Positions 4,723 to 62,410 of a stretch of 64,000 bases of DNA are shown piece by piece. A program made the position numbers and the translations under genes. Under the pieces are notes generated by a model, which was not told where the DNA came from, made no database searches, and saw only the letters and a program-made list of their open reading frames with translations. The first letter of the stretch is position 1; every line of letters begins with the position of its first letter. The DNA comes from Pseudeuparius sepicola (taxonomy: Eukaryota > Arthropoda > Insecta > Coleoptera > Anthribidae), in contig OY987298.1 of NCBI GenBank assembly GCA_963920635.1, positions 130,085,735 to 130,149,734 of the forward strand, written 5' to 3'.

Positions 4723-5382
4723 TTATACCGGATGGATTTTTTGGATCAAATTGGAGTATACTGAACTGAGGTTGGATGTGTCCGTTCTAAGATTTATAGA
4801 ATTAGGGTGTTCCTTTATGTACAGCATTTCGGATATTAATCGTTTCGGTAAATTTTGTTCTCTATCTAAAATTGTAATATTTACAAAATCAAATTTATGT
4901 CCTGTTTGAAAGTGATGTGCCGATAATGCTGTTTTATTATTTTTGTTAATGTTTACTGGACTACAGTCATATTTGTGGTTATACAGTCTTTTCCCAACTT
5001 TTTGTTTTGTTTGTCCGACATAACAACCATCACAACTTAGACAATTTATTTTATATACGATACATGACTCTTCAAGTAATTCTGTAGGACTTTTAAGTTT
5101 GGAAAATAGTTTGTTGACGGTTTTTTGGCAATAGAAAACTATTTGTATGTTGTTATTTAGGATATGTCTCAATCTATTGTTTAATCCAGGAATATTGGGA
5201 ATTTTCATGTATATTTTAGCGTTTTGAGGGTTATTTATTTCGTCAATTCGGTTGGTATCACAGTAAAGTATTCTATTTATTATATTTTTGGGGTAATTAT
5301 TCTGAATTGCTATTGTCTTAATTTTGTTAAAGTTTTTCTTCCGGCACTTTTGATCGCTGAGTTGTTCAACTCTATAAATCAT
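4723..5382 (-). pseudogene. GIY-YIG endonuclease C-terminal part of a Penelope-like protein
   Basis: A 219-residue open frame ends at 4723. Around residues 105-130 it has a Cys pair (CLSCDGC) immediately followed by YVGQTKQKVGKRLYNHK. This matches the GIY-YIG nuclease fold: YVG stands in the GIY/YIG strand position, with the conserved Arg and His-rich helix after it. An HHFQTGH segment follows and fits the distal part of the domain. In Penelope-like elements this domain nicks target DNA for reverse transcription. The frame is the best preserved part of the element and has lost its in-frame link to the polymerase upstream. Confidence 0.85.
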
Positions 5383-5440
5383 ACTTTTTATCGTTGCCAG
5401 TTTTTGCTGTAGGGGATGTGAGGAACGGTAGTTAAGTATT

Positions 5441-6191
5441 CTACCAGAACTTGTAACTTGTGGGTTTCTGGTACCAATCTAGAAGTAATTTATTATTTTC
5501 TCTAACAAAAAGAATGTCTAAGAACGGAATTTTTTTATCAGATTCTAGTTCTAAAGTGAATTTTAATGAATCACAATATGAATTGAAGGCAGTGAGGAGA
5601 GCTCCCTCTTCACCTTTTCTCACACATATCATCTACGTAGCAAAAAAGAAAGGTAGCTGAAATGGTAAATTTTCTAATACATTGCATATTAGGTCATGTA
5701 GTACCAAATTAGCTGAAATAGGTGAAGATGGGTTGCCCATCGCAGTGCCATATATTTGACTGTAAAATTTATTTTGGTATTGGAAATAACTGGATTCGAA
5801 AAAGGAAGGAAACTATATTTTGGAAGTTGTTAAAATCTATCTCGGTATGTTGTTTAACATCATCCCAGTGTTTACCGATTGCACTTAAAACAAGAGGTTT
5901 TGTCACATTGGTAAATAATGAAACAACATCCAGTGAAATAAGAATGTGATCTTCTGGAATGGCCACATCCATAATTCTTCTCGACATATCAAATGAGTTT
6001 TTTAAAGTAAATTTAAATAGTGGAGTTAAATTATTTAAGATATCAGAAATAAATTTCGATAGAAAGTAAGTAGGTGTTTGGACACATGAGACAATTGGCC
6101 TTAACGGTAGATTGTTTTTATGGACTTTGGGTAGTCCATAAATTTTAGGTGGTTTAGCATTCAGAATAGTTAATTTTTTTGCCCTTGTCAC
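5441..6191 (-). pseudogene. Penelope-like reverse transcriptase, broken
   Basis: Two frames on the minus strand. Codons within 5769-6191 give PPKIYGLPKVHK, LRPIVS and ISLDVVSLFTNV, which match finger and palm motifs of the Penelope RT; the D of SLDVVSLF is the first catalytic aspartate. The YVDD catalytic motif lies at 5628-5639 but in a different frame from the following piece (5441-5632). That piece carries the thumb-side motif with FTLELESDKKIPFLDILF and YQKPT. At least two frameshifts therefore separate the parts. The RT would copy element RNA at a GIY-YIG nick if intact; here it cannot be made. Confidence 0.85.
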
Positions 6192-6319
6192 ATCAATAAT
6201 GTTTTTTTTGGGTCAAGTTTTTAATGATATTATTATTACATGTTTGAAATTTATTTATAGGGTTTCTTTCTAATTCTTTGTAGATAGTTTGATCTGATAG
6301 AAGGGATGTCATTTTTTCA

Positions 6320-7168
6320 TTATACGTTTGTCTTTCCAACAAAAGTTGCATTTCCTTTGTCTGATCTAGTCAAAATAAGGTTGTCATTGTTTTTTAAAAA
6401 AGTCTTAGTCTTGTGAAACAATTTGTTAAAATGAGTTTGTCTAGTTCTGTTATTAAGAGAATGAATGTGATTTGTAATAGCATTCGTAGACTCTCCTCTT
6501 AAAACATGTTTATCGATGTTTTCAGATTGTTGTTGGATACAATGTTCGACATCTTTGAGAAGGGACGTTAAATGTAAGTCATTTTTATTGTATTCTATCG
6601 CGAATTCTGGTCCTAAGGAAATGAAGTTCGCTATTTCTTCAGGAACCACTGTATTAGAAAAATTATGTAACCAATTTTTCTTATGGTCAAATGAATCAAA
6701 ATTAGGTTGTTGGTTATGTCTTTTCAAGTTATTTAATTTTTTAATTTTGAATTTTATATTGATAAATATTTTGTAATATGTTTTTGAATTAAGGAAAGGA
6801 ATTTGGTCAATAAATCTGTTGATAAAATGGGGCGTATAGAGTTAATTTTTTTGGTTAATGTTTTCCTTAGAGATTCAATCTGCCAGTGAGTTATACATAT
6901 TTATTTCTATATTAAGTATACTAATTCTAAATTTTTTGGTGACGAGATCTAATTTACTTATATATGGATGTTTTCCAGCTTCAAGTAAGTATGTACATTT
7001 TATGTTCTGCACAATATGGTCAGAAAAAAGGCTGTTATTCTTGCATTGTAACAGGAACAGTTTTCTGTTTTCAAATCTTGCCAACTTTTCTTTTAAGTTT
7101 GATATACGTCTTAATTCTAATTTTACCTCGTAGCCGTAGTTGATAGTTATTGTACCGAGTAAACTCAT
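6320..7168 (-). pseudogene. N-terminal region of the Penelope-like protein, broken
   Basis: Two frames (6875-7168 and 6320-6727) precede the reverse transcriptase in the same orientation. The second contains NFSNTVVPEEIANFISLGPEF and TRSDKGNA, typical of the segment just upstream of the RT fingers in Penelope proteins. The first begins at an ATG (MSLLGTITINYG) about 65 bp inside the upstream pseudo-LTR boundary and is a plausible native start. The two are out of frame with one another. Confidence 0.7.
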
Positions 7169-7234
7169 GATCGATGTTGGATATGTGCAATAGGTAACTA
7201 TGTGGTGGTTGAATTTAGTCCTCGACTATAGAGT

Positions 7235-21490: not shown

Positions 21491-21496
21491 ATAATT
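21491..21496. repeat. Left 6-bp target-site duplication ATAATT
   Basis: Identical to 35659-35664. It directly abuts the AGTAGTATAGC terminus. Confidence 0.85.
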
Positions 21497-22616
21497 AGTA
21501 GTATAGCTATGCCGGTTCAAGGCCAATTTCCCCATGTATTTCTTATGGGAGCAAAATCCTGCACTTTTTTGACCAAACTTACCCCCTCCACTCCCAAACC
21601 ACGCCCCCCAGCCAATCGCGCCGACCGTTGACCTTCGCCCCTGCTCCCAACCCTGCCGAAGGTGCCCGAGTCCCCGTCATTATCCCTCCGACCGTTGACC
21701 CAGCCGCGACATGTCACGACTCGCAACTAATAAAAACCCTAAATCATAATTAAGCCATGACGTCCCCCTGTCGACCTTTAGCCGCGGCCATGCATGGATT
21801 TTTGCTACCACCTCTGCCTGCGTATTTTTGCGTCCGCGACGCCGAGACATGTCGAGACTCGCAACTAATAAAAACCTAACACCTATAGAAAAATACCAGC
21901 TTGCAATATGTACGTGATGTAATTCCTCGGAAAAAAGTACTTTCTCTTTGTCGGAATAAGCGCCTATGAAACGAGCACGCTGATCTCATCGGTACTGGCG
22001 ATAAAAAATTTGTAGGAAAAGTGTAATAAAGAATAGATATGAGATACATATGAGTGTATACATTTTCTTGACTACATTACCTAAGGATGTATCAAAAATC
22101 TATCTTCCTATATTTAGAGACTGCTTCTCAAAGGAAAGTGGATATTAAATTTGGGGCATAAATTAACCATTTTTAGTTGAGTTTATAACCATCTAGGTAA
22201 GTAAATTTCTTTAATTCCGAGAAAGCCAGGCCCTGTTTTAAATTACTTGACTAAAATATAATAGGTGCAAAGTTCACCAGTTTTTAAAAATATCCCGTCA
22301 CACGATTATCAAGTTGAAAGACTAGCTGCAAAATCGGATTTTGTACAACGCGTTTCCTGTTTAAAATTTCACCCAGAAAAAAAAAGGTACTAATTCTCAC
22401 TTATGCCATGTTCACCGTATGATTTTTATACTATTCCGACTTCGAAAACCCAAAGGTATAAGTGTAGCGTGTGGAAAAAGGGTTTAAAACCCTTAAACGG
22501 TCTATATATGGAATACAATGAGGGCATGCAACATGTTCTTCAATAATGAAAATTAAAACAATGTTCATTTTTGACTGTCCATTATCCTACCAAGAAAAAG
22601 CTTATAGCGTCTAAGC

Positions 22617-22910
22617 GACTATAAAAACGACTCTAAAAACGTCTAAACGACTCTAAAAAACGACTAGACGACTCGTAAAAACGACTAGACGATTCGAAAA
22701 ACGACTAGACGATTCGGAAAAAACGACTAAACGACTCTGAGAACGACTAAACGATTCTGGAAAACGACTAGACGATTCTGAAAAACGACTAGACGACTTG
22801 AAAAAGCGACATACCATTGAATACCATCGAGTACCATGGAATACCATCAAATACCATGAAATACCATCAAAGACCATGGAATACTATCGAAAACCACGGA
22901 ATACCATAAA
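22617..22910 (+). repeat. Minisatellites in the left arm
   Basis: 22617-22807 is built of about eight units of roughly 20 bp, cgacta(g/a)acgattc plus an A-rich spacer. 22808-22910 is built of about ten 10-bp units around ataccatcga/ataccatgga. Both arrays are mirrored in the right arm at 34245-34538. They produce long chance frames of Ser/Arg/Phe-rich protein and should not be read as genes. Confidence 0.75.
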
Positions 22911-22984
22911 TAGTCTTGGATATCCCTGTGAAAAAATTTGCCTCGGGGAGAGCATAAAAGGAAATTATCCGTGATCGATGCTCT

Positions 22985-23264
22985 GTGATCGAAAGATCGT
23001 CTTTGATAATACAATCACTCTCAGTTAAAGACATGTTTTTGTCACTTGAGATTGAACCTAGGAGTTATGGTATCCAACACACCAATGACGGATTAGTCAT
23101 GGGACAAATACCAGTAACTGTTGAAGATAACGTATTATGTATTGGAGATCAAAATTACCCTTACACCAGGTCTGTCTCAACTGCTTTTGAAGAACAAACC
23201 ACAAGGTATTAATGAGAGTGACCTAAAAATATACAAACAATTGTTGATTACTAATTTTCGATAG
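22985..23264 (+). pseudogene. Frameshifted Maverick-associated small protein (left arm copy)
   Basis: The first frame runs from 22985 (an ATG at 23033 is also possible) and has a YGIQHTNDGLVMGQIPVTV core followed by an Asn/Ile/Gly-rich strand. Near 23158 the reading moves one base to a frame that gives TPGLSQLLLKNKP and continues to a stop at 23262-23264. The order YG...GxxPV...Y..TPGL..LL..K.P resembles, from memory, a short domain of unknown function common in arthropod Maverick-linked proteins (annotated DUF8207). Both arms carry the same shift, so it predates or was copied with the inverted duplication. Function unknown. Confidence 0.5.
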
Positions 23265-23329
23265 GTTCAACAAATCAGGTTTTAAAAGTATTTGTGTTTA
23301 GGTGCCTATGGTTTCATCTGGTATATGTT

Positions 23330-23385
23330 CCATACAGGATTCGAACCTTAGCCCACATTCCAAAGCCAAACACTCGGCATTTAAG
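23330..23385 (-). repeat. tRNA/SINE-like promoter segment (left arm)
   Basis: On the minus strand GCCGAGTGTTTGG (A-box-like, as in Leu/Ser tRNAs) is followed about 30 bases on by GGTTCGAATCC, a perfect pol III B box. This spacing is usual for tRNA-derived SINE heads. No full cloverleaf was found, so it is not called a tRNA gene. The mirror copy is at 33770-33825. Confidence 0.4.
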
Positions 23386-26300
23386 TAAAATTCTAGGAAA
23401 TGCTTGGCAGTGTGGTAATAATCTCGACGCGCTGTTGTAGCAGGGCTCCGCTGGCTCCCGCAGGCCTCGCCGGTCTCTGTAGACTCAGCAGGTCCCTTTA
23501 ATGATGTGTACCGCAGGCTCCGATTAAATTAAAAAAATTACTATTAACACTAAAATACCCGGACAATAACCATCATTCCAACGCCAAAACACCCAACAGT
23601 AGTATTTCTGCGAATGCATCGCAGCCGGGCGCAAGGTGGATGACTCACATCCGCTAGCCGGAACTTGTCAGGACAGGTTGACGACCTAAAAACAATTCTC
23701 TCTACTTAGATAAAAATAGAATGTCCAATAAGATTTTTTTCACACACTTTTATATATAAGCACAGATAACGTAACCATATAAGTATATATTAGAATATTA
23801 TAAAATATTTAAGCCCCATATAGTTCGAATTTGAATGGGATATTATGTTACATGGGTAATATATCTCAACACTTCGTACACAAACAAAACTCGCTCGTTC
23901 TTTACAGTTTTATTACTGTGAATTCGGTACCTACTAAAGCGGCAGACTTGGGATGCCGCAGTAGCAAATACAATATGAAGCGCAGCTCTGATGTATACTA
24001 AAAATGTTATTATCAAACTTGAGACGCACACATATTTAAAAATATAAATACCGCCGGATGAATGCAAGGCCAATTTACGGAATATAGCAAAACAATTAGA
24101 TTATGGACATGGATATTAATTTCTTTAGGTAATGGTAATAAACATTTGATACTATCGACAGGAGTCTACGCAAAATAATTGTATCAGTATTCAGCAAATA
24201 AAAAAGTTATGGGTACCCGTCACCGATGAAAAAGTATACAAAACTGATAAAATGTTCGTGGGATCTTGTATATTAAAATATTTAATCGCGTATCTAAGTT
24301 GTTATTTTATTCATTGCCCATCCCACAAATTTGGATTTTTAGCTCTTGTAATCGCTCGATCACGATTGAAACTACACTCATAAAATGTTTAAAAAAATGC
24401 CCACCCCACGTGATCGCTCGACAAAAACAAAACGTGCAAAGTGGCTACTGCTCGAGGTTTGACCTTTGTCCTTAGGGACACGTGTGACCCAGTTGATGTA
24501 GAATCTAAAAAAACCCTCTAAATCATACTTCCATAGCATAGAATCTAAAATCCCCCGGTACAGTACGGATGAAAATTTCAAACCAGGCATAATCAACATG
24601 TACGTTCAAAGTAAAAAAAACTTGTCGGTCAACTGTTTAACCCCGAAATTTTGTTGATTTCTAGGAATAAAAAGAAATACTGCAATTGTAAGTCCAAAGC
24701 TATTTACGCTATCAAATTCGTTTAAAATGCGAATGATAATTTGCCGCATTAAAACCAGGCGTGAAAAATTCAACATACGTCCCTAAGAAGTTCAACCAAT
24801 TTTACCCTGGAAATACAACATTTTTAATGAATAAAATATCGAACATACAACAACCCCCTTCTAAATATAGTATAAATCATGGTTTTTTTTTGATAATGTA
24901 GAAAGCTAAACTGAAAATTGTTGCTAGAGGTTCTAAAAACCGGGGTGCCAAAAATCAACTATTATTAGAAAATACGCTGATGTCATAATATAGCCGTCGA
25001 TGTCACCGTTAGCGTGTCCTATGAAAAATGCGTTCTGCTTAATAAGGTGTAAAAAAATCCATGACGGGGCTTAGATGAATAAATAAAGTTTGATGTATGT
25101 GAAAGTATAGACTAAATTTTCGTATAGCCCGCGTGATCGCTCGAGGTGGCGGTATCCTCTGGACTAGAAAATATCATATCGGCTCAATCTCCAAACATTT
25201 TCATTTTGAATTATACGTTTTCATTGATGATAGATCTAGCAAGAAAATTGGACTGGACTCGATATGAGAGACATTAATCTAACTTTCACTAAACTGCACG
25301 TACTACTTAGAGGGTTGTAAGCCGTTTTAATAAAAGCACCAGACTTGCTTAAAATTCATGGCTAAACGTTAACATAATGTCATACAAACATGCGGCACGC
25401 AAAATATTAAGAATAGATATATGAGCTCAAACATGTTGATCAAAAAATATATTTATTTCTGGCGATTTAGTTTACCAGTTATCATTTAAAAACAAAACCT
25501 GGTCCCAATATTCAGTGAAAATAATAATTGAAAACTTTGTACCTTATAAACCACCACTAAATAGTGAGTCGGAAATAAATAAAAAAATATATATAAATAT
25601 ATTATTTTGATATTATAGCCGAAACTGAATTTATTGGGGTGAAGATGTAAGGAAATATTTTTAGCTAGGAAAAAGTAATGCAATTATCATAGGTACTGGT
25701 TGCAGAACCCGTTGTCAGTTTTGCAAGGATTTTTGATACAAATATAATTGCTAACGTTTACCCCATTTACGAAAATGATAACAAAATTGGATCAGACAAG
25801 ATGTTTTTTCGAAGTATAGTTTTTAAACACAGGGTGCCACCACCGGTTTTACGATATAGGTTTAAAAATGCGACGCAAATACATAAAAAAATACCCTAGA
25901 GATAAGAAAACAAAATACAACTCACCAAAAGATTCTTGGTGATGTATAAAAAGAAATCAGGTTACATCTAATGTCCCAGACAGTAGAATAAACATCCCCG
26001 AGCGATGAGATATAACCAAACATCATTTTTCCAACGGCACAGTCATTTTCACGGGAAAAACAACCAGTAACCGTTCAAATTCCATAGATAGATACTGCCG
26101 TAAATTTCACTGAACTACGCGTATCTATTATACTGAAGTAGGTACTGATACACTTCCATCTTTCCAAAGAAAAACAAACACGAAACTCAGACTTTTCATA
26201 TATTACAACGCCTCGAGTCTTTGTGGCCACGACCGAGAATCTACTGAAGCAAGTGCGACGCATAGGACGTGAAAAGTGCCGAGTTGGTTTTATTAAACAA

Positions 26301-27859
26301 TGAAACTTATACCTACGTATATATATAAAATAAATGAGAAATATGCCAGAGATTTGAAACCTAATTGTGTTGCAAGTTTGAGGTCCAAAAAAATATTGGT
26401 TTTAATTTTTTAAGGTGAGAAACACATCTAACAGCCAGTTTGGAAATATACAAGGCAAAAAAAGTAGTGATGTGGCTGCCCCATTTTATGTTTTATACAG
26501 GTTGGATTATTTTAGAATAGTTGTTCAATAGACCGAGACAACATCATAAACGCTTCCCGTTAGAACAGAATCTGATGAAAAGAAAAATTCCATCTGGGTC
26601 AAGCTACTAGATAACCAAAATAAAAAATACTGAACGTTATAAAATTTAAAAAATCATATTTTCAACGGATTTTTATCCTCTGAAAATGGCGTAAAATTCA
26701 GTTTCACTGGGTCAAGCTAGGTGGTAACTATATAACCAAAATAAAAAAAATACTGAACGTTATAAAATTTAAAAAATCATATTTTCATGGGATTTTTGTC
26801 CTCTGAAAATGACGCAAATTCAGTTTCAATAAGTTACTAATTGGGGTAATAGAGGAAAAATCTTAAATAGGAATTCTGAGACAACGAGGCTGAGAGTAAA
26901 TAACATACAAAAATCTTGTGCGTTGACTTTGAACTGAATTTAATAATTAGGTTTAATAACGACAATTTTCTCGATTATCTAGAATCAAAAATATTGCAAG
27001 TGACAATTCACTATTTTCTCGACATTATGTAAAGCCTTATTATTGCGTCGTAAATTAAAAGATCCAAAAATATTGGCATCAATTGTTTAGTAAATGTGAT
27101 TAAAATATGTCTACTTTATCAACAGTTATTTGTAACAGCTTATTATCTCGGAAGCGTAAACTCTTTGAATTTTTTAGACAAAAAGTTGTAGTTTAATAAT
27201 GGTCAGTTGGATTCCTTTTTGAATCATGTTTGCGTATTACCTACAAGGATTTACAACCTCCAAACATAGAAATCGCTCATTTTAACCCGATTTAATAAAA
27301 ATTTCACCAAAAAAAACAATACTTTCAGTCATATAATACACTTCTGATTAATAAAAAAGGCACTATAGTAATAATGAGATTTTCAATGGAATTTTTATAG
27401 ACTGTTTGCCCATTTTGAGAGTCTGTTTGCTAGCTTTTGGGGGTATTCCTTGATATTTTAGACGGATAAAAATGAATAACATTGGGTTTCCTAACTGAAA
27501 TACAAAACGCACTGTTGACTTTACTTCCGTGGATAGTAAGCCTATAATACGTATCGAAAACAGAGAAATATTCAGGTCAAGAAAAAAGTAGCCTAATTTA
27601 CAAGTTTGGGAATCAAAAACTACCTTTTGTCTTTTAATTTTGATGAGAAAATACGTCTAATTCGTAAGTCAAATAAATGGGACATCATGAACGATATACT
27701 AATAATTGAACAAATGCTATCTCAGTTCTATAGGCACAAAGGTACTATGGGTAGTAATAGTTTTGGGATCAAAAGACAAGCTTTTAAATTTGTTAAGAAA
27801 ATACGTCTAATGAAATTGAAAGTAGTAACTAGATTTTGGTTAACATTTCGTTAACGTGT

Positions 27860-29290
27860 TGATGAATGTTTGATGCAAGTGAAAAGTAGATCGAATTTTC
27901 CAAAAAACGGTGACTGACCAAACAAGTTATTATAAAAAGTTGCTCAGGAGACCGATGTAACCTAGAAAACGCCTTTCCTTCGAATAGAAAGTGACATAAA
28001 TAGTTACAAAATGGGACTTAGACGGATATTCGATGCAAGTGAAAAGTAGGCAGAATTTTCGAAAATCGGGACGGACCAAAAATTATTAAGTTGATCGGGA
28101 GTTTGAGATAACCTATGAAACGCCTTTCATTGGAATAGAATCTGACAAAAAAAATCCAAGAAAATTTTAGACGACTGTTTGCAAGTGAAAAGTATACAGA
28201 TTTTTTTCGAAAACCGGCGACTGACAAAAAAATATACTTATTAGAATCTGTATGCTTTTCACTTGCAAACATACTCGGCCTCCCAATCAACTTTTCTAAT
28301 AATTTTTTGTTTCTTTTTCACTTGCAAACATTCGTCTAAGTCACGTCTCGGATTTTTTTTGTCATATTCTATTCGAATGAAAGGCGTTTCCTAGGTTAAA
28401 CCTTCCGATCAACTTTTCTAATAATTTTTTGTTTTTTTTCCACTTGCAAACATTCGTCTAAGTCACGTCTCGGATTTTTTTTTGTCATATTCTATTCGAA
28501 TGAAAGGCGTTTCCTAGGTTAAACCTTCCGGTCAACTTTTCTAATAATTTTTTTTTGTTTTTTTTTCACTTGCAAACATTCGTCTAAGTCACGTCTTGGC
28601 ATTTTTTTTTACAGATTTTGTTGAAACAAAATATCAATGTTATCTGGGGGCCTTCCGACTAACTATTTTTATCAGTCACTCGAAAAAATCTATCTACACT
28701 TTTCCACTTGCATCAAATATTCGTCTAATAAGTCCCGTTCCTTATTCGATTTTTTTATTATATTCAAACGAATGGCGTTTTTTTCGGGAATTCGGTCTAT
28801 ACTATTCACTTGCATCAAACATTCGCCTAAGTCCCCATCATGGAATTTTATTTCAGATTATATTCGGACGAGAGGCGTTTTCTAGGTTACCTCGGTCTCC
28901 CGAGCAAAATTTTCTAATAAGTATATTTTTTTGTCAGTCGCCGGTTTTCGAAAAAAATCTGTATACTTTTCACTTGCAAACAGTCGTCTAAAATTTTCTT
29001 GGATTTTTTTTGTCAGATTCTATTCCAATGAAAGGCGTTTCATAGGTTATCTCAAACTCCCGATCAACTTAATAATTTTTGGTCCGTCCCGATTTTCGAA
29101 AATTCTGCCTACTTTTCACTTGCATCGAATATCCGTCTAAGTCCCATTTTGTAACTATTTATGTCACTTTCTATTCGAAGGAAAGGCGTTTTCTAGGTTA
29201 CATCGGTCTCCTGAGCAACTTTTTATAATAACTTGTTTGGTCAGTCACCGTTTTTTGGAAAATTCGATCTACTTTTCACTTGCATCAAAC
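27860..29290. repeat. Tandem repeats around the palindrome centre, orientation switching
   Basis: Units of about 100-160 bp share cacttgca(aa/tc)...attcgtctaagtc, then a t(c/g)t(c/g)attctattcgaatg block, aaaggcgtttcctaggtta and a t-rich end. They read on the plus strand at 28259, 28319, 28441, 28567, 28704, 28807, 28970, 29116 and 29277, and on the minus strand near 28180, 28035 and 27877. The orientation changes at about 28246-28259, the start of the unpaired 665-bp spacer. Confidence 0.75.
28247..28911 (+). other. Unpaired spacer of the giant palindrome
   Basis: Pairing stops at ttagaa (28241-28246) and resumes at ttctaa (28912-28917). The 665 bp between consists of the same tandem units as the adjoining arms, all in plus orientation, including near-identical ones of about 121 and 127 bp. 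It has no recognisable gene. Confidence 0.8.
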
Positions 29291-32200
29291 ATTCATCAAC
29301 ACGTTAACGAAATGTTAACCAAAATCTAGTTACTACTTTCAATTTCATTAGACGTATTTTCTTAACAAATTTAAAAGCTTGTCTTTTGATCCCAAAACTA
29401 TTACTACCCATAGTACCTTTGTGCCTATAGAACTGAGATAGCATTTGTTCAATTATTAGTATATCGTTCATGATGTCCCATTTATTTGACTTACGAATTA
29501 GACGTATTTTCTCATCAAAATTAAAAGACAAAAGGTAGTTTTTGATTCCCAAACTTGTAAATTAGGCTACTTTTTTCTTGACCTGAATATTTCTCTGTTT
29601 TCGATACGTATTATAGGCTTACTATCCACGGAAGTAAAGTCAACAGTGCGTTTTGTATTTTAGTTAGGAAACCCAATGTTATTCATTTTTATCCGTCTAA
29701 AATATCAAGGAATACCCCCAAAAGCTAGCAAACAGACTCTCAAAATGGGCAAACAGTCTATAAAAATTCCATTGAAAATCTCATTATTACTATAGTGCCT
29801 TTTTTATTAATCAGAAGTGTATTATATGACTGAAAGTATTGTTTTTGGTGAAATTTTTATTAAATCGGGTTAAAATGAGCGATTTCTATGTTTGGAGGTT
29901 GTAAATCCTTGTAGGTAATACGCAAACATGATTCAAAAAGGAATCCAACTGACCATTATTAAACTACAACTTTTTGTCTAAAAAATTCAAAGAGTTTACG
30001 CTTCCGAGATAATAAGCTGTTACAAATAACTGTTGATAAAGTAGACATATTTTAATCACATTTACTAAACAATTGATGCCAATATTTTTGGATCTTTTAA
30101 TTTACGACGCAATAATAAGGCTTTACATAATGTCGAGAAAATAGTGAATTGTCACTTGCAATATTTTTGATTCTAGATAATCGAGAAAATTGTCGTTATT
30201 AAACCTAATTATTAAATTCAGTTCAAAGTCAACGCACAAGATTTTTGTATGTTATTTACTCTCAGCCTCGTTGTCTCAGAATTCCTATTTAAGATTTTTC
30301 CTCTATTACCCCAATTAGTAACTTATTGAAACTGAATTTGCGTCATTTTCAGAGGACAAAAATCCCATGAAAATATGATTTTTTAAATTTTATAACGTTC
30401 AGTATTTTTTTTATTTTGGTTATATAGTTACCACCTAGCTTGACCCAGTGAAACTGAATTTTACGCCATTTTCAGAGGATAAAAATCCGTTGAAAATATG
30501 ATTTTTTAAATTTTATAACGTTCAGTATTTTTTATTTTGGTTATCTAGTAGCTTGACCCAGATGGAATTTTTCTTTTCATCAGATTCTGTTCTAACGGGA
30601 AGCGTTTATGATGTTGTCTCGGTCTATTGAACAACTATTCTAAAATAATCCAACCTGTATAAAACATAAAATGGGGCAGCCACATCACTACTTTTTTTGC
30701 CTTGTATATTTCCAAACTGGCTGTTAGATGTGTTTCTCACCTTAAAAAATTAAAACCAATATTTTTTTGGACCTCAAACTTGCAACACAATTAGGTTTCA
30801 AATCTCTGGCATATTTCTCATTTATTTTATATATATACGTAGGTATAAGTTTCATTGTTTAATAAAACCAACTCGGCACTTTTCACGTCCTATGCGTCGC
30901 ACTTGCTTCAGTAGATTCTCGGTCGTGGCCACAAAGACTCGAGGCGTTGTAATATATGAAAAGTCTGAGTTTCGTGTTTGTTTTTCTTTGGAAAGATGGA
31001 AGTGTATCAGTACCTACTTCAGTATAATAGATACGCGTAGTTCAGTGAAATTTACGGCAGTATCTATCTATGGAATTTGAACGGTTACTGGTTGTTTTTC
31101 CCGTGAAAATGACTGTGCCGTTGGAAAAATGATGTTTGGTTATATCTCATCGCTCGGGGATGTTTATTCTACTGTCTGGGACATTAGATGTAACCTGATT
31201 TCTTTTTATACATCACCAAGAATCTTTTGGTGAGTTGTATTTTGTTTTCTTATCTCTAGGGTATTTTTTTATGTATTTGCGTCGCATTTTTAAACCTATA
31301 TCGTAAAACCGGTGGTGGCACCCTGTGTTTAAAAACTATACTTCGAAAAAACATCTTGTCTGATCCAATTTTGTTATCATTTTCGTAAATGGGGTAAACG
31401 TTAGCAATTATATTTGTATCAAAAATCCTTGCAAAACTGACAACGGGTTCTGCAACCAGTACCTATGATAATTGCATTACTTTTTCCTAGCTAAAAATAT
31501 TTCCTTACATCTTCACCCCAATAAATTCAGTTTCGGCTATAATATCAAAATAATATATTTATATATATTTTTTTATTTATTTCCGACTCACTATTTAGTG
31601 GTGGTTTATAAGGTACAAAGTTTTCAATTATTATTTTCACTGAATATTGGGACCAGGTTTTGTTTTTAAATGATAACTGGTAAACTAAATCGCCAGAAAT
31701 AAATATATTTTTTGATCAACATGTTTGAGCTCATATATCTATTCTTAATATTTTGCGTGCCGCATGTTTGTATGACATTATGTTAACGTTTAGCCATGAA
31801 TTTTAAGCAAGTCTGGTGCTTTTATTAAAACGGCTTACAACCCTCTAAGTAGTACGTGCAGTTTAGTGAAAGTTAGATTAATGTCTCTCATATCGAGTCC
31901 AGTCCAATTTTCTTGCTAGATCTATCATCAATGAAAACGTATAATTCAAAATGAAAATGTTTGGAGATTGAGCCGATATGATATTTTCTAGTCCAGAGGA
32001 TACCGCCACCTCGAGCGATCACGCGGGCTATACGAAAATTTAGTCTATACTTTCACATACATCAAACTTTATTTATTCATCTAAGCCCCGTCATGGATTT
32101 TTTTACACCTTATTAAGCAGAACGCATTTTTCATAGGACACGCTAACGGTGACATCGACGGCTATATTATGACATCAGCGTATTTTCTAATAATAGTTGA

Positions 32201-33769
32201 TTTTTGGCACCCCGGTTTTTAGAACCTCTAGCAACAATTTTCAGTTTAGCTTTCTACATTATCAAAAAAAAACCATGATTTATACTATATTTAGAAGGGG
32301 GTTGTTGTATGTTCGATATTTTATTCATTAAAAATGTTGTATTTCCAGGGTAAAATTGGTTGAACTTCTTAGGGACGTATGTTGAATTTTTCACGCCTGG
32401 TTTTAATGCGGCAAATTATCATTCGCATTTTAAACGAATTTGATAGCGTAAATAGCTTTGGACTTACAATTGCAGTATTTCTTTTTATTCCTAGAAATCA
32501 ACAAAATTTCGGGGTTAAACAGTTGACCGACAAGTTTTTTTTACTTTGAACGTACATGTTGATTATGCCTGGTTTGAAATTTTCATCCGTACTGTACCGG
32601 GGGATTTTAGATTCTATGCTATGGAAGTATGATTTACAGGGTTTTTTTAGATTCTACATCAACTGGGTCACACGTGTCCCTAAGGACAAAGGTCAAACCT
32701 CGAGCAGTAGCCACTTTGCACGTTTTGTTTTTGTCGAGCGATCACGTGGGGTGGGCATTTTTTTAAACATTTTATGAGTGTAGTTTCAATCGTGATCGAG
32801 CGATTACAAGAGCTAAAAATCCAAATTTGTGGGATGGGCAATGAATAAAATAACAACTTAGATACGCGATTAAATATTTTAATATACAAGATCCCACGAA
32901 CATTTTATCAGTTTTGTATACTTTTTCATCGGTGACGGGTACCCATAACTTTTTTATTTGCTGAATACTGATACAATTATTTTGCGTAGACTCCTGTCGA
33001 TAGTATCAAATGTTTATTACCATTACCTAAAGAAATTAATATCCATGTCCATAATCTAATTGTTTTGCTATATTCCGTAAATTGGCCTTGCATTCATCCG
33101 GCGGTATTTATATTTTTAAATATGTGTGCGTCTCAAGTTTGATAATAACATTTTTAGTATACATCAGAGCTGCGCTTCATATTGTATTTGCTACTGCGGC
33201 ATCCCAAGTCTGCCGCTTTAGTAGGTACCGAATTCACAGTAATAAAACTGTAAAGAACGAGCGAGTTTTGTTTGTGTACGAAGTGTTGAGATATATTACC
33301 CATGTAACATAATATCCCATTCAAATTCGAACTATATGGGGCTTAAATATTTTATAATATTCTAATATATACTTATATGGTTACGTTATCTGTGCTTATA
33401 TATAAAAGTGTGTGAAAAAAATCTTATTGGACATTCTATTTTTATCTAAGTAGAGAGAATTGTTTTTAGGTCGTCAACCTGTCCTGACAAGTTCCGGCTA
33501 GCGGATGTGAGTCATCCACCTTGCGCCCGGCTGCGATGCATTCGCAGAAATACTACTGTTGGGTGTTTTGGCGTTGGAATGATGGTTATTGTCCGGGTAT
33601 TTTAGTGTTAATAGTAATTTTTTTAATTTAATCGGAGCCTGCGGTACACATCATTAAAGGGACCTGCTGAGTCTACAGAGACCGGCGAGGCCTGCGGGAG
33701 CCAGCGGAGCCCTGCTACAACAGCGCGTCGAGATTATTACCACACTGCCAAGCATTTCCTAGAATTTTA

Positions 33770-33825
33770 CTTAAATGCCGAGTGTTTGGCTTTGGAATGT
33801 GGGCTAAGGTTCGAATCCTGTATGG
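33770..33825 (+). repeat. tRNA/SINE-like promoter segment (right arm)
   Basis: Mirror copy of 23330-23385: GCCGAGTGTTTGG followed by GGTTCGAATCC in plus orientation. Confidence 0.4.
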
Positions 33826-33890
33826 AACATATACCAGATGAAACCATAGGCACCTAAACACAAATACTTTTAAAACCTGATTTGTTGAAC

Positions 33891-34170
33891 CTATCGAAAA
33901 TTAGTAATCAACAATTGTTTGTATATTTTTAGGTCACTCTCATTAATACCTTGTGGTTTGTTCTTCAAAAGCAGTTGAGACAGACCTGGTGTAAGGGTAA
34001 TTTTGATCTCCAATACATAATACGTTATCTTCAACAGTTACTGGTATTTGTCCCATGACTAATCCGTCATTGGTGTGTTGGATACCATAACTCCTAGGTT
34101 CAATCTCAAGTGACAAAAACATGTCTTTAACTGAGAGTGATTGTATTATCAAAGACGATCTTTCGATCAC
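33891..34170 (-). pseudogene. Frameshifted Maverick-associated small protein (right arm copy)
   Basis: Exact mirror of 22985-23264, including the one-base frame change before TPGL. Its presence in both arms at the same distance from each terminus shows it belongs to the duplicated half-element and is not a separate insertion. Confidence 0.5.
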
Positions 34171-34244
34171 AGAGCATCGATCACGGATAATTTCCTTTTA
34201 TGCTCTCCCCGAGGCAAATTTTTTCACAGGGATATCCAAGACTA

Positions 34245-34538
34245 TTTATGGTATTCCGTGGTTTTCGATAGTATTCCATGGTCTTTGATGGTATTTCATG
34301 GTATTCGATGGTATTCCATGGTACTCGATGGTATTCAATGGTATGTCGCTTTTTCAAGTCGTCTAGTCGTTTTTCAGAATCGTCTAGTCGTTTTCCAGAA
34401 TCGTTTAGTCGTTCTCAGAGTCGTTTAGTCGTTTTTTCCGAATCGTCTAGTCGTTTTTCGAATCGTCTAGTCGTTTTTACGAGTCGTCTAGTCGTTTTTT
34501 AGAGTCGTTTAGACGTTTTTAGAGTCGTTTTTATAGTC
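34245..34538 (-). repeat. Minisatellites in the right arm
   Basis: Mirror of 22617-22910: about ten 10-bp tggtattc(c/g)a units, then about eight units of roughly 20 bp around gaatcgtctagtcgttttt. One base differs between arms near 34317. Confidence 0.75.
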
Positions 34539-35658
34539 GCTTAGACGCTATAAGCTTTTTCTTGGTAGGATAATGGACAGTCAAAAATGAACATTGTTTT
34601 AATTTTCATTATTGAAGAACATGTTGCATGCCCTCATTGTATTCCATATATAGACCGTTTAAGGGTTTTAAACCCTTTTTCCACACGCTACACTTATACC
34701 TTTGGGTTTTCGAAGTCGGAATAGTATAAAAATCATACGGTGAACATGGCATAAGTGAGAATTAGTACCTTTTTTTTTCTGGGTGAAATTTTAAACAGGA
34801 AACGCGTTGTACAAAATCCGATTTTGCAGCTAGTCTTTCAACTTGATAATCGTGTGACGGGATATTTTTAAAAACTGGTGAACTTTGCACCTATTATATT
34901 TTAGTCAAGTAATTTAAAACAGGGCCTGGCTTTCTCGGAATTAAAGAAATTTACTTACCTAGATGGTTATAAACTCAACTAAAAATGGTTAATTTATGCC
35001 CCAAATTTAATATCCACTTTCCTTTGAGAAGCAGTCTCTAAATATAGGAAGATAGATTTTTGATACATCCTTAGGTAATGTAGTCAAGAAAATGTATACA
35101 CTCATATGTATCTCATATCTATTCTTTATTACACTTTTCCTACAAATTTTTTATCGCCAGTACCGATGAGATCAGCGTGCTCGTTTCATAGGCGCTTATT
35201 CCGACAAAGAGAAAGTACTTTTTTCCGAGGAATTACATCACGTACATATTGCAAGCTGGTATTTTTCTATAGGTGTTAGGTTTTTATTAGTTGCGAGTCT
35301 CGACATGTCTCGGCGTCGCGGACGCAAAAATACGCAGGCAGAGGTGGTAGCAAAAATCCATGCATGGCCGCGGCTAAAGGTCGACAGGGGGACGTCATGG
35401 CTTAATTATGATTTAGGGTTTTTATTAGTTGCGAGTCGTGACATGTCGCGGCTGGGTCAACGGTCGGAGGGATAATGACGGGGACTCGGGCACCTTCGGC
35501 AGGGTTGGGAGCAGGGGCGAAGGTCAACGGTCGGCGCGATTGGCTGGGGGGCGTGGTTTGGGAGTGGAGGGGGTAAGTTTGGTCAAAAAAGTGCAGGATT
35601 TTGCTCCCATAAGAAATACATGGGGAAATTGGCCTTGAACCGGCATAGCTATACTACT

Positions 35659-35664
35659 ATAATT
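35659..35664. repeat. Right 6-bp target-site duplication ATAATT
   Basis: Directly follows the ...ATACTACT terminus and is identical to 21491-21496. Confidence 0.85.
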
Positions 35665-61989: not shown

Positions 61990-62410
61990 ACGGGCGTAGC
62001 CAGGATTTAGTTTTTGGGGGGGGGGGGTTAGTTTGAGAAGTAAATAAAACAACAAAAATATACTTACATGAAATTTAATATCTATATATTCATCCGAAAA
62101 ACTACGACATATTTATAAAGTTGTTAACTTTAAATGAAATGGATAAATTAATTTCGTTCCTCTGCGCTAAATCTAAAACCATTAAAGAAGAAATCTTCGG
62201 CTTTAATATATCCACTACTTCATCTGCATGAATTTCTGTTCCATAGTGAATGTTCCTTAGAGCCAAACCATTAAGTCTGTTTTTACTTGTAGTGTTTCGT
62301 AAATAGTTTTTCAGTCTCCTTAGGCTCGACAAAGACCTTTCTGGGGTAGCAGTGGATATACAGGAATGGTAGCCAAGATTTGTAGTAATGTGTAAATATT
62401 AGGATAAAGG
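61990..62410 (-). pseudogene. hAT transposase C-terminal relic
   Basis: The minus strand gives LYPNIYTLLQILATIPV (about 62344-62405) and, one frame over, STATPERSLSSLRRLKNYL followed by RNTTSKNRLNGLALRNIH (down to about 62225), ending at a TAG at 62102. This is the IPVSxAxxERSFSxLxxIKxYLR...RLxxLAL signature of the hAT dimerisation domain. One frameshift lies just after IPV. The nearby cacgggcgtagccagg (61990) resembles a hAT end (CAGTGGCGTAGCC); no right end or 8-bp duplication was found. Confidence 0.8.

Follow-up and report, generated by a model that had tools for sequence, protein, structure and literature searches.

Introduction

The replication of Mavericks, also called Polintons, has been inferred mainly from their genes, and its intermediates are hard to observe. 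According to the part of PMC6431247 that covers their genes, Polintons carry genes for a protein-primed PolB and for a retroviral-like integrase. In the section of PMC8097293 on intact vertebrate Mavericks, the commonest ends are (AGT)2//(ACT)2, the duplications measure 6 bp, and the terminal repeats range from 46-1,447 bp. The passage of PMC10045372 on IS3EU/GingerRoot elements gives 6-bp duplications with ends TA..TA, occasionally TG..CA, and that of PMC4079207 on the foldback element Tetris gives 8-10-bp duplications and long arms with internal tandem repeats. Snap-back genomes of adeno-associated virus (AAV) are described, in the relevant section of PMC8235507, as self-complementary molecules that are symmetric or carry an asymmetric single-stranded loop. 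In this study, we analysed a stretch of 64,000 nucleotides from the beetle Pseudeuparius sepicola (contig OY987298.1, positions 130,085,735 to 130,149,734; hereafter the window), which contains a large palindromic element at 21497..35658. An earlier note, made from the letters of the window, had described this element as a near-perfect palindrome integrated like a Maverick, and had proposed that a snap-back event followed by normal integration would account for it. Here the element is compared with its relatives in the same genome, a repeated family that we call M1.

Results

The palindromic element of the window

The window has a G+C content of 35%. When it was compared with itself by BLAST, one pair was outstanding: 21496-28246 matched 35659-28912 in inverted orientation over 6751 columns with 99.91% identity. 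The left arm occupies 21497..28246 (plus strand) and, as judged by Pfam scans and tblastn, holds no recognisable intact gene; the right arm mirrors it at 28912..35658 (minus strand), and the spacer between them is 665 bp. In the alignment of arm against arm with MAFFT, which the earlier note had called for, only 3 substitutions (22849, 24518, and 27497) and one 3-bp indel (27309-27311) were observed, confirming the near-perfect palindrome. The element begins with AGTAGTATAGC at 21497 (21497..21507, plus strand) and finishes with the reverse complement at 35658 (35648..35658, minus strand), so that the outer coordinates given previously were exact to the base. This terminus carries the (AGT)2 Maverick end motif, and its 11 bp recur at the ends of the gene-bearing Maverick M2 described below. 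ATAATT was found on both outer sides of the element (21491..21496 and 35659..35664), forming a perfect 6-bp target site duplication; in the flank comparison, the computed chance of a 6-bp match between random position pairs was 0.05%, or 0.3% with a freedom of +-2 bp. Furthermore, the window has 18 AGTAGT and 14 ACTACT sites, and of all their pairs spaced by 0.3-30 kb, only the element ends showed a 6-bp duplication. The (AGT)2...(ACT)2 ends and the 6-bp duplication that characterise a Maverick/Polinton were thus both present, as had been claimed for this element.

Copies of M1 in the genome

Subsequently, the genome (769 Mb, 16 contigs) was searched with the first kilobase of the arm as the query, and the best 40 of 1105 candidates were scored. 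At least 46 matches were obtained, from which 15 inverted pairs, 13-52 kb apart, could be formed by orientation and spacing; the others stood single among the matches listed. Thirteen of the 15 pairs were read, E1 (the window copy) to E13, the last in part only, and counts out of 12 refer to E1-E12, the copies with both arms read. Long inverted arms of about 4.7-8.2 kb were present in all 12, and several copies hold nested insertions. Perfect 6-bp duplications, different from one another, flanked 10 of the 12 (E1-E4, E6-E10, and E11). The copies start with AGTAGTATAG in six cases and with AGTAGATAGG in the other six; an AGTAGT start was seen in the window copy, E2, E3, E5, E10, and E11 (6/12), and the base just outside AGT varies among copies. 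These results demonstrate that M1 has inserted at many places and that its palindromic layout is inherited. Hence the normal integration proposed for the window copy holds for the family, and the further palindromic copies that had been suggested as a check do exist, E2-E12 all having inverted arms; the idea of a single event did not survive, the palindrome being a family trait of 12 copies.

Similarity of the two arms

Over the first 4.5 kb, identity between the two arms of one copy was 99.58-99.96%, against 97.7-99.5% for the left arms of different copies. In a tree of this stretch, the left and right arms were sisters in 10 of 10 copies, with support of 0.85-1.0. Among 3741 ungapped columns, 74 variants, spread over the whole stretch, each occurred in a single copy and there in both arms, and a further 63 were confined to one arm. 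As for the differences between left and right, 83 of 89 were private to the arm in question. Variants that are specific to a copy and common to both of its arms are unexpected if the arms evolved independently once the palindrome existed; accordingly, the arms of M1 are made alike again, at transposition or afterwards.

Some differences between the arms were larger. The arms of E2 differ in length by ~200 bp, and E10 contains, in its left arm only, a second long-repeat element with the end AGTAGTAATAC and a 6-bp duplication, TATAAC. The arms of this nested element are about 5.6 kb long and 97.6-99.7% identical by block, its 4.9-kb middle has an acetyltransferase-like frame, and it resembles the window family in part of the arm only, at 86-92%.

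Centres of the copies

E4, E7, and E8 were palindromic through the centre; E4 and E8 showed two axes, the array lengths of their arms differing by about 0.5 and 0.13 kb. A common central loop of about 50 nt (44-54 by the reading of the stem) was found in E3, E4, and E8, that is, in 3 of the 10 copies searched. In E3, one half is complete and the other ends within the array, and in E2 and E6 one half extends near the position of the loop. The centres of E2, E3, E4, E6, and E8 could be aligned with one another, at about 97-99.7%, until close to the loop. All eight copies mapped had one orientation switch each, and the counts of array units before and after it differed among copies, being for example 3/9 in the window, 8/8 in E7, 0/7 in E6, and 4/9 in E3 (one outlying motif left uncounted). 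These centres are most simply explained by a single ancestral palindrome that later underwent deletions at its centre, most of them asymmetric; a fold-back placed off-centre during replication would leave marks of the same kind.

In the window copy, a ~123-bp repeat array ends the arms and continues through the spacer in right-arm orientation, the orientation switching once, at about 28246. The TGCAAGTGAAAA motif occurred in three forward units at the inner end of the left arm (27866..28246, plus strand, with a spacing of 146-160 bp) and in nine backward units after the switch, six in the asymmetric spacer (28247..28911, minus strand), where the loop common to E3, E4, and E8 was not found, and three at the inner end of the right arm. 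A local inverted repeat spans the switch (28181..28266), and the single strand of 28160-28280 across it gave a folding energy of -27.8 kcal/mol (z -8.1). The reported spacer size was correct, but the spacer is not a separate middle: it consists of further array units in right-arm orientation. Two explanations are available for this asymmetric centre: a deletion in an unstable palindrome left a scar, or a fold-back took place off-centre and its loop was retained. We also considered the window centre as a unique fold-back point and dropped this view, as the loop common to E3, E4, and E8 makes central deletion simpler.

A gene-bearing Maverick inside E12

The middle of E12, about 18.2 kb, was identified as a Maverick, M2. 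It encodes an integrase core (rve, 4e-11) with a chromodomain match (chromo, 7e-4) below its cut-off, a double-jelly-roll capsid protein (1e-68), an A32-type ATPase (3e-9), and a phospholipase A2-like domain, together with a weak match to an adenovirus-type protease (0.006, below the cut-off). No PolB was recognised in M2: DNA_pol_B_2 had no match among its three minus-strand frames, and the position of M2 is absent among the PF03175 matches listed in the genome search described below. The ends of M2 read AGTAGTATAGCAAAGGGG, the first 11 bp being those of the window element and the remainder different. A gene-bearing Maverick with the same terminus, which the earlier note had proposed to look for, is thus present in this genome. 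The terminal repeat of M2 is at least 1.82 kb long at 99.9% identity, with further repeats inside.

The earlier suggestion that one arm equals half of such a Maverick was not borne out by M2. Its pieces gave no DNA match of at least 150 bp over 80% to the M1 arm, and in tblastn with 13 M2 frames no match to the arm was obtained at E<=0.01; for lack of a match to these frames, the arms cannot be taken as a half of M2 that snapped back. E12 was also considered as an autonomous parent with 8-kb terminal repeats; this was rejected, because the junction shows a separate Maverick, M2, in the centre of an M1 palindrome.

Gene content of the M1 arms

In a Pfam scan of 27 distinct open pieces from the left arm and spacer of the window copy (of 135 with at least 30 codons), nothing was above the cut-off, and no PolB, integrase, ATPase, protease, or capsid gene was found among these pieces. 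The longest open frame in 21497-28912 was 121 codons; in 100 shuffles, the median longest was 98 and the largest 153. For the arm pieces scanned, then, the reported absence of core genes was correct, as was the description of the element as nearly all terminal repeat. By its lack of core genes, M1 is at most a non-autonomous derivative and not an autonomous Maverick member.

The left arm contains a minisatellite of 12- and 21-bp units followed by 10/20-bp units (22616..22912, plus strand), and a broken gene relic whose first piece, with 84 open codons, lies at 22958..23209 and whose second piece lies in a different frame at 23118..23261 (both plus strand). All 9 other left arms compared have the stretch 22958..23209, with an identity of 96.8-99.8%. 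We presume that the relic resembles an arthropod Maverick-associated protein, a likeness that was not confirmed: protein searches with each piece separately gave 0 matches, and degenerate DNA patterns for a motif of its suspected family gave 0 matches in viral contigs. A 17-base pattern of the terminus gave 0 matches in viral contigs and 3 in prokaryote contigs, and chance was estimated to give more. No Rfam families or tRNAs were found in the 64-kb window.

A second palindromic family, with PolB

A profile search of the genome with PF03175 (DNA_pol_B_2), in which the best 87 of 1839 candidates were scored, gave at least 152 matches, and for many of these the frame was open over 1254 codons. 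Such an abundance of PolB frames points to a recent Maverick burst. Among the matches listed, inverted PF03175 matches about 2-12 kb apart occurred at no fewer than six places: C5 at 31.30 Mb, C7 at 27.34 Mb, C3 at 42.02 and 44.26 Mb, C11 at 39.47 Mb, and C2 at 74.77 Mb. Pieces were read at two of these six, C5 and C7. The inverted stretch was 3954 bp at 100% in C5 and 2944 bp at 99.9% (3 mismatches) in C7, in each case reaching the edge of the piece read and with PolB in both arms. Over 3001 bp, the C5 and C7 copies were 99.4% identical, with 17 mismatches and one gap. Among 18 variable columns of the four arms, 15 separated the copies in both arms and 3 were private to one arm. At the DNA level, the left pieces of C5 and C7 matched neither the M1 arm nor M2. 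Concerted arms were therefore observed in two families, M1 and the PolB-bearing pieces. At these two of six places, a symmetric snap-back Maverick with coding arms fits the PolB-bearing family best. The snap-back of a coding half, which the earlier note had put forward for the window copy, is the natural reading of this palindromic family; for M1, with no match to M2, it stays unproven.

Other features of the copies and the window

Contig C12 (1.05 Mb) carries three M1 copies at about 548, 779, and 1010 kb, ~231 kb apart, a spacing that may reflect either segmental tandem duplication or an unusual chromosome. One copy on this contig, E11, has inserts with CAGGGTG...CACCCTG ends at the same two positions in both arms; their lengths and most of their sequence differ. 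These inserts, which we take to be mariner-like, may be either independent insertions at a hot spot or the result of exchange. In E9 (contig C2), one arm harbours a nested retroelement whose frames comprise reverse transcriptase, integrase, and a Baculovirus-F-like envelope. The E13 span (contig C1) contains a Maverick-like gene set, namely, an A32-type ATPase with a zinc finger and an integrase with a chromodomain, as well as Pao- and Gypsy-type retroelements. In the window itself, 4723-7225 (minus strand) holds a decayed retroelement with reverse transcriptase-like and GIY-YIG-like pieces, which is presumably Penelope-like and for which Pfam gave no support. Pieces of the hAT transposase dimerisation domain (PF05699) lie on the minus strand at 2560-2823 and 62102-62398, with E values of 1.1e-7 and a sub-threshold 0.0034.

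Discussion

Taken together, these findings make it likely that M1 is a multi-copy, mobile, Maverick/Polinton-like foldback family with concerted arms, class, mobility, and concerted arms being judged jointly. The assignment to the Maverick/Polinton-like class, taken by itself, is highly probable. In M1, a pair of arms, each reaching about 8.2 kb at most, encloses a loop of some 50 nt. As the shared termini suggest, a Maverick integrase recognising AGTAGTATAGC, such as that of M2, would insert M1 in trans. Before this step, a displaced or incomplete strand would fold back at the centre into a hairpin, and the strand would be completed on itself, or its stem mismatches repaired, as in snap-back genomes, which adenoviruses, too, form. 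Both arms would thereby be alike before integration. We regard the arguments for and against such a self-templated stage, which would re-equalise the M1 arms, as evenly balanced. A broader proposal is that Mavericks here might have a second, self-complementary, palindromic life, in which hairpin copying of one arm into the other in every cycle renews both together, much as LTRs are renewed, giving rise to M1 and, independently, to the PolB-bearing family; we lean slightly against it.

Several observations weigh against renewal of the arms before integration or against the Maverick-like, ancestral palindrome as such. E5 and E12 have no 6-bp duplication, and half of the copies (E4, E6, E7, E8, E9, and E12; 6/12) start with AGTAGA. 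The central loop was not found in the other 7 of the 10 copies searched. The left-right differences are clustered, with 21 neighbours within 50 bp against 10.6 expected and 0 of 2000 simulations as high; two clustered spots, in E2 and E10, stand out. In the inner 2-kb stretch, where there is little divergence, left and right arms were sisters in 10 of 11 copies, E8 being the exception, and another copy was closer than the own partner in 4 of 11 (E2, E5, E8, and E10). In E12, M2 meets the M1 arm at one and the same arm position on either side, and no duplication is present; this junction agrees with an insertion that hit one arm and was then copied to the other, in place or not. Sex-chromosome palindromes have arms that are kept alike by intrachromosomal conversion, and gene conversion in place could act here in the same way: the palindrome would be inherited, integration would be ordinary, and intrachromosomal conversion would keep the arms alike afterwards. 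This explanation predicts the left/right sister pattern too, and copying after insertion explains why M2 lies symmetrically between arms cut at one position. It fares less well with the one-arm changes that were not copied, namely, the ~200 bp in E2 and the second long-repeat element in the left arm of E10, and with the fact that the great majority of left-right differences (83/89) are private point changes; we hold gene conversion to be possible, though rather doubtful. Alternatively, each copy might have arisen by an independent snap-back event, as proposed previously for the window copy. The single switch per copy, with differing numbers of array units on either side in the 8 copies mapped, favours this view; however, E3, E4, and E8 share a central loop (not found in 7/10 copies), and the alignment of the centres of E2, E3, E4, E6, and E8, at about 97-99.7% until close to the loop, likewise speaks against it, making independent events unlikely.

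The remaining alternatives concern the class of the element and the assembly. Foldback architecture, that is, long inverted arms with internal tandem repeats and no coding capacity, is indeed what M1 has, and the same anatomy of long arms with internal tandem repeats appears in the description of Tetris in PMC4079207. Membership of a Mutator- or P-superfamily foldback group is nevertheless very improbable, as the duplications of 8-10 bp given there for Tetris differ from the 6 bp of 10 of the 12 M1 copies, which moreover carry the Maverick end motif. An IS3EU/GingerRoot element would have a duplication of equal length, 6 bp, in the account of PMC10045372; but the ends given in that account are TA..TA, occasionally TG..CA, and such termini next to the 6-bp duplication were not found in M1. 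Counting T as part of the element would leave the window copy without a 6-bp duplication, and the base outside AGT varies; this assignment, too, has very little probability. Finally, long inverted repeats are prone to misassembly, and our analysis rests on assembled sequence, so that a hairpin read or a mirrored contig had to be considered. The mirror, however, ends exactly at the element ends with a duplication, the flanks differ, differences private to one arm occur, and 12 loci show long inverted arms of this kind; we consider an artefact extremely improbable.

If the arms of M1 are equalised as proposed, either once per cycle or continuously afterwards, the concerted arms of its integrated copies constitute a fossil record of an intermediate. 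Foldback architecture would then enter the Maverick superfamily. In a literature search limited to one full-text collection, no report of a palindromic or foldback Maverick appeared among the papers listed; neither "palindromic transposon" nor Polinton or Maverick preceded by "non-autonomous" (or "nonautonomous") occurs in that collection, the papers listed for these terms having only "Polinton-derived". Furthermore, natural palindromes of 14-16 kb that persist in a genome with varied centres would be useful for the study of palindrome instability.

M1 shares the 6-bp duplication and the (AGT)2...(ACT)2 ends with Maverick/Polinton elements, and its 11-bp terminus is also that of M2. Unlike Maverick/Polinton elements, it has no polymerase, integrase, or capsid gene among the pieces scanned, and its copies E4, E8, and E7 are palindromic through the centre. 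Long terminal repeat (LTR) retrotransposons have two terminal copies that are alike at insertion and diverge afterwards; unlike theirs, the repeats of M1 are inverted, not direct, and there is no sign of reverse transcription. FB and Galileo are likewise foldback elements with long inverted tandem-repeat arms, and the arms of M1 are longer than those of the FB, Galileo, and Tetris foldback elements. The arms of about 4.7-8.2 kb also contrast with the terminal repeats of 46-1,447 bp listed for intact vertebrate Mavericks in the section of PMC8097293 cited above. Tetris, as portrayed in the corresponding part of PMC4079207, resembles M1 in its long inverted arms, tandem repeats, non-coding middle, and non-autonomous copies; unlike Tetris, M1 has a 6-bp duplication, not the 8-10 bp of the Mutator type, and Maverick termini. 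The snap-back genomes of AAV, self-complementary like M1, are aberrant forms found in particles, whereas the form seen in M1 is integrated in the genome and inherited in many copies.

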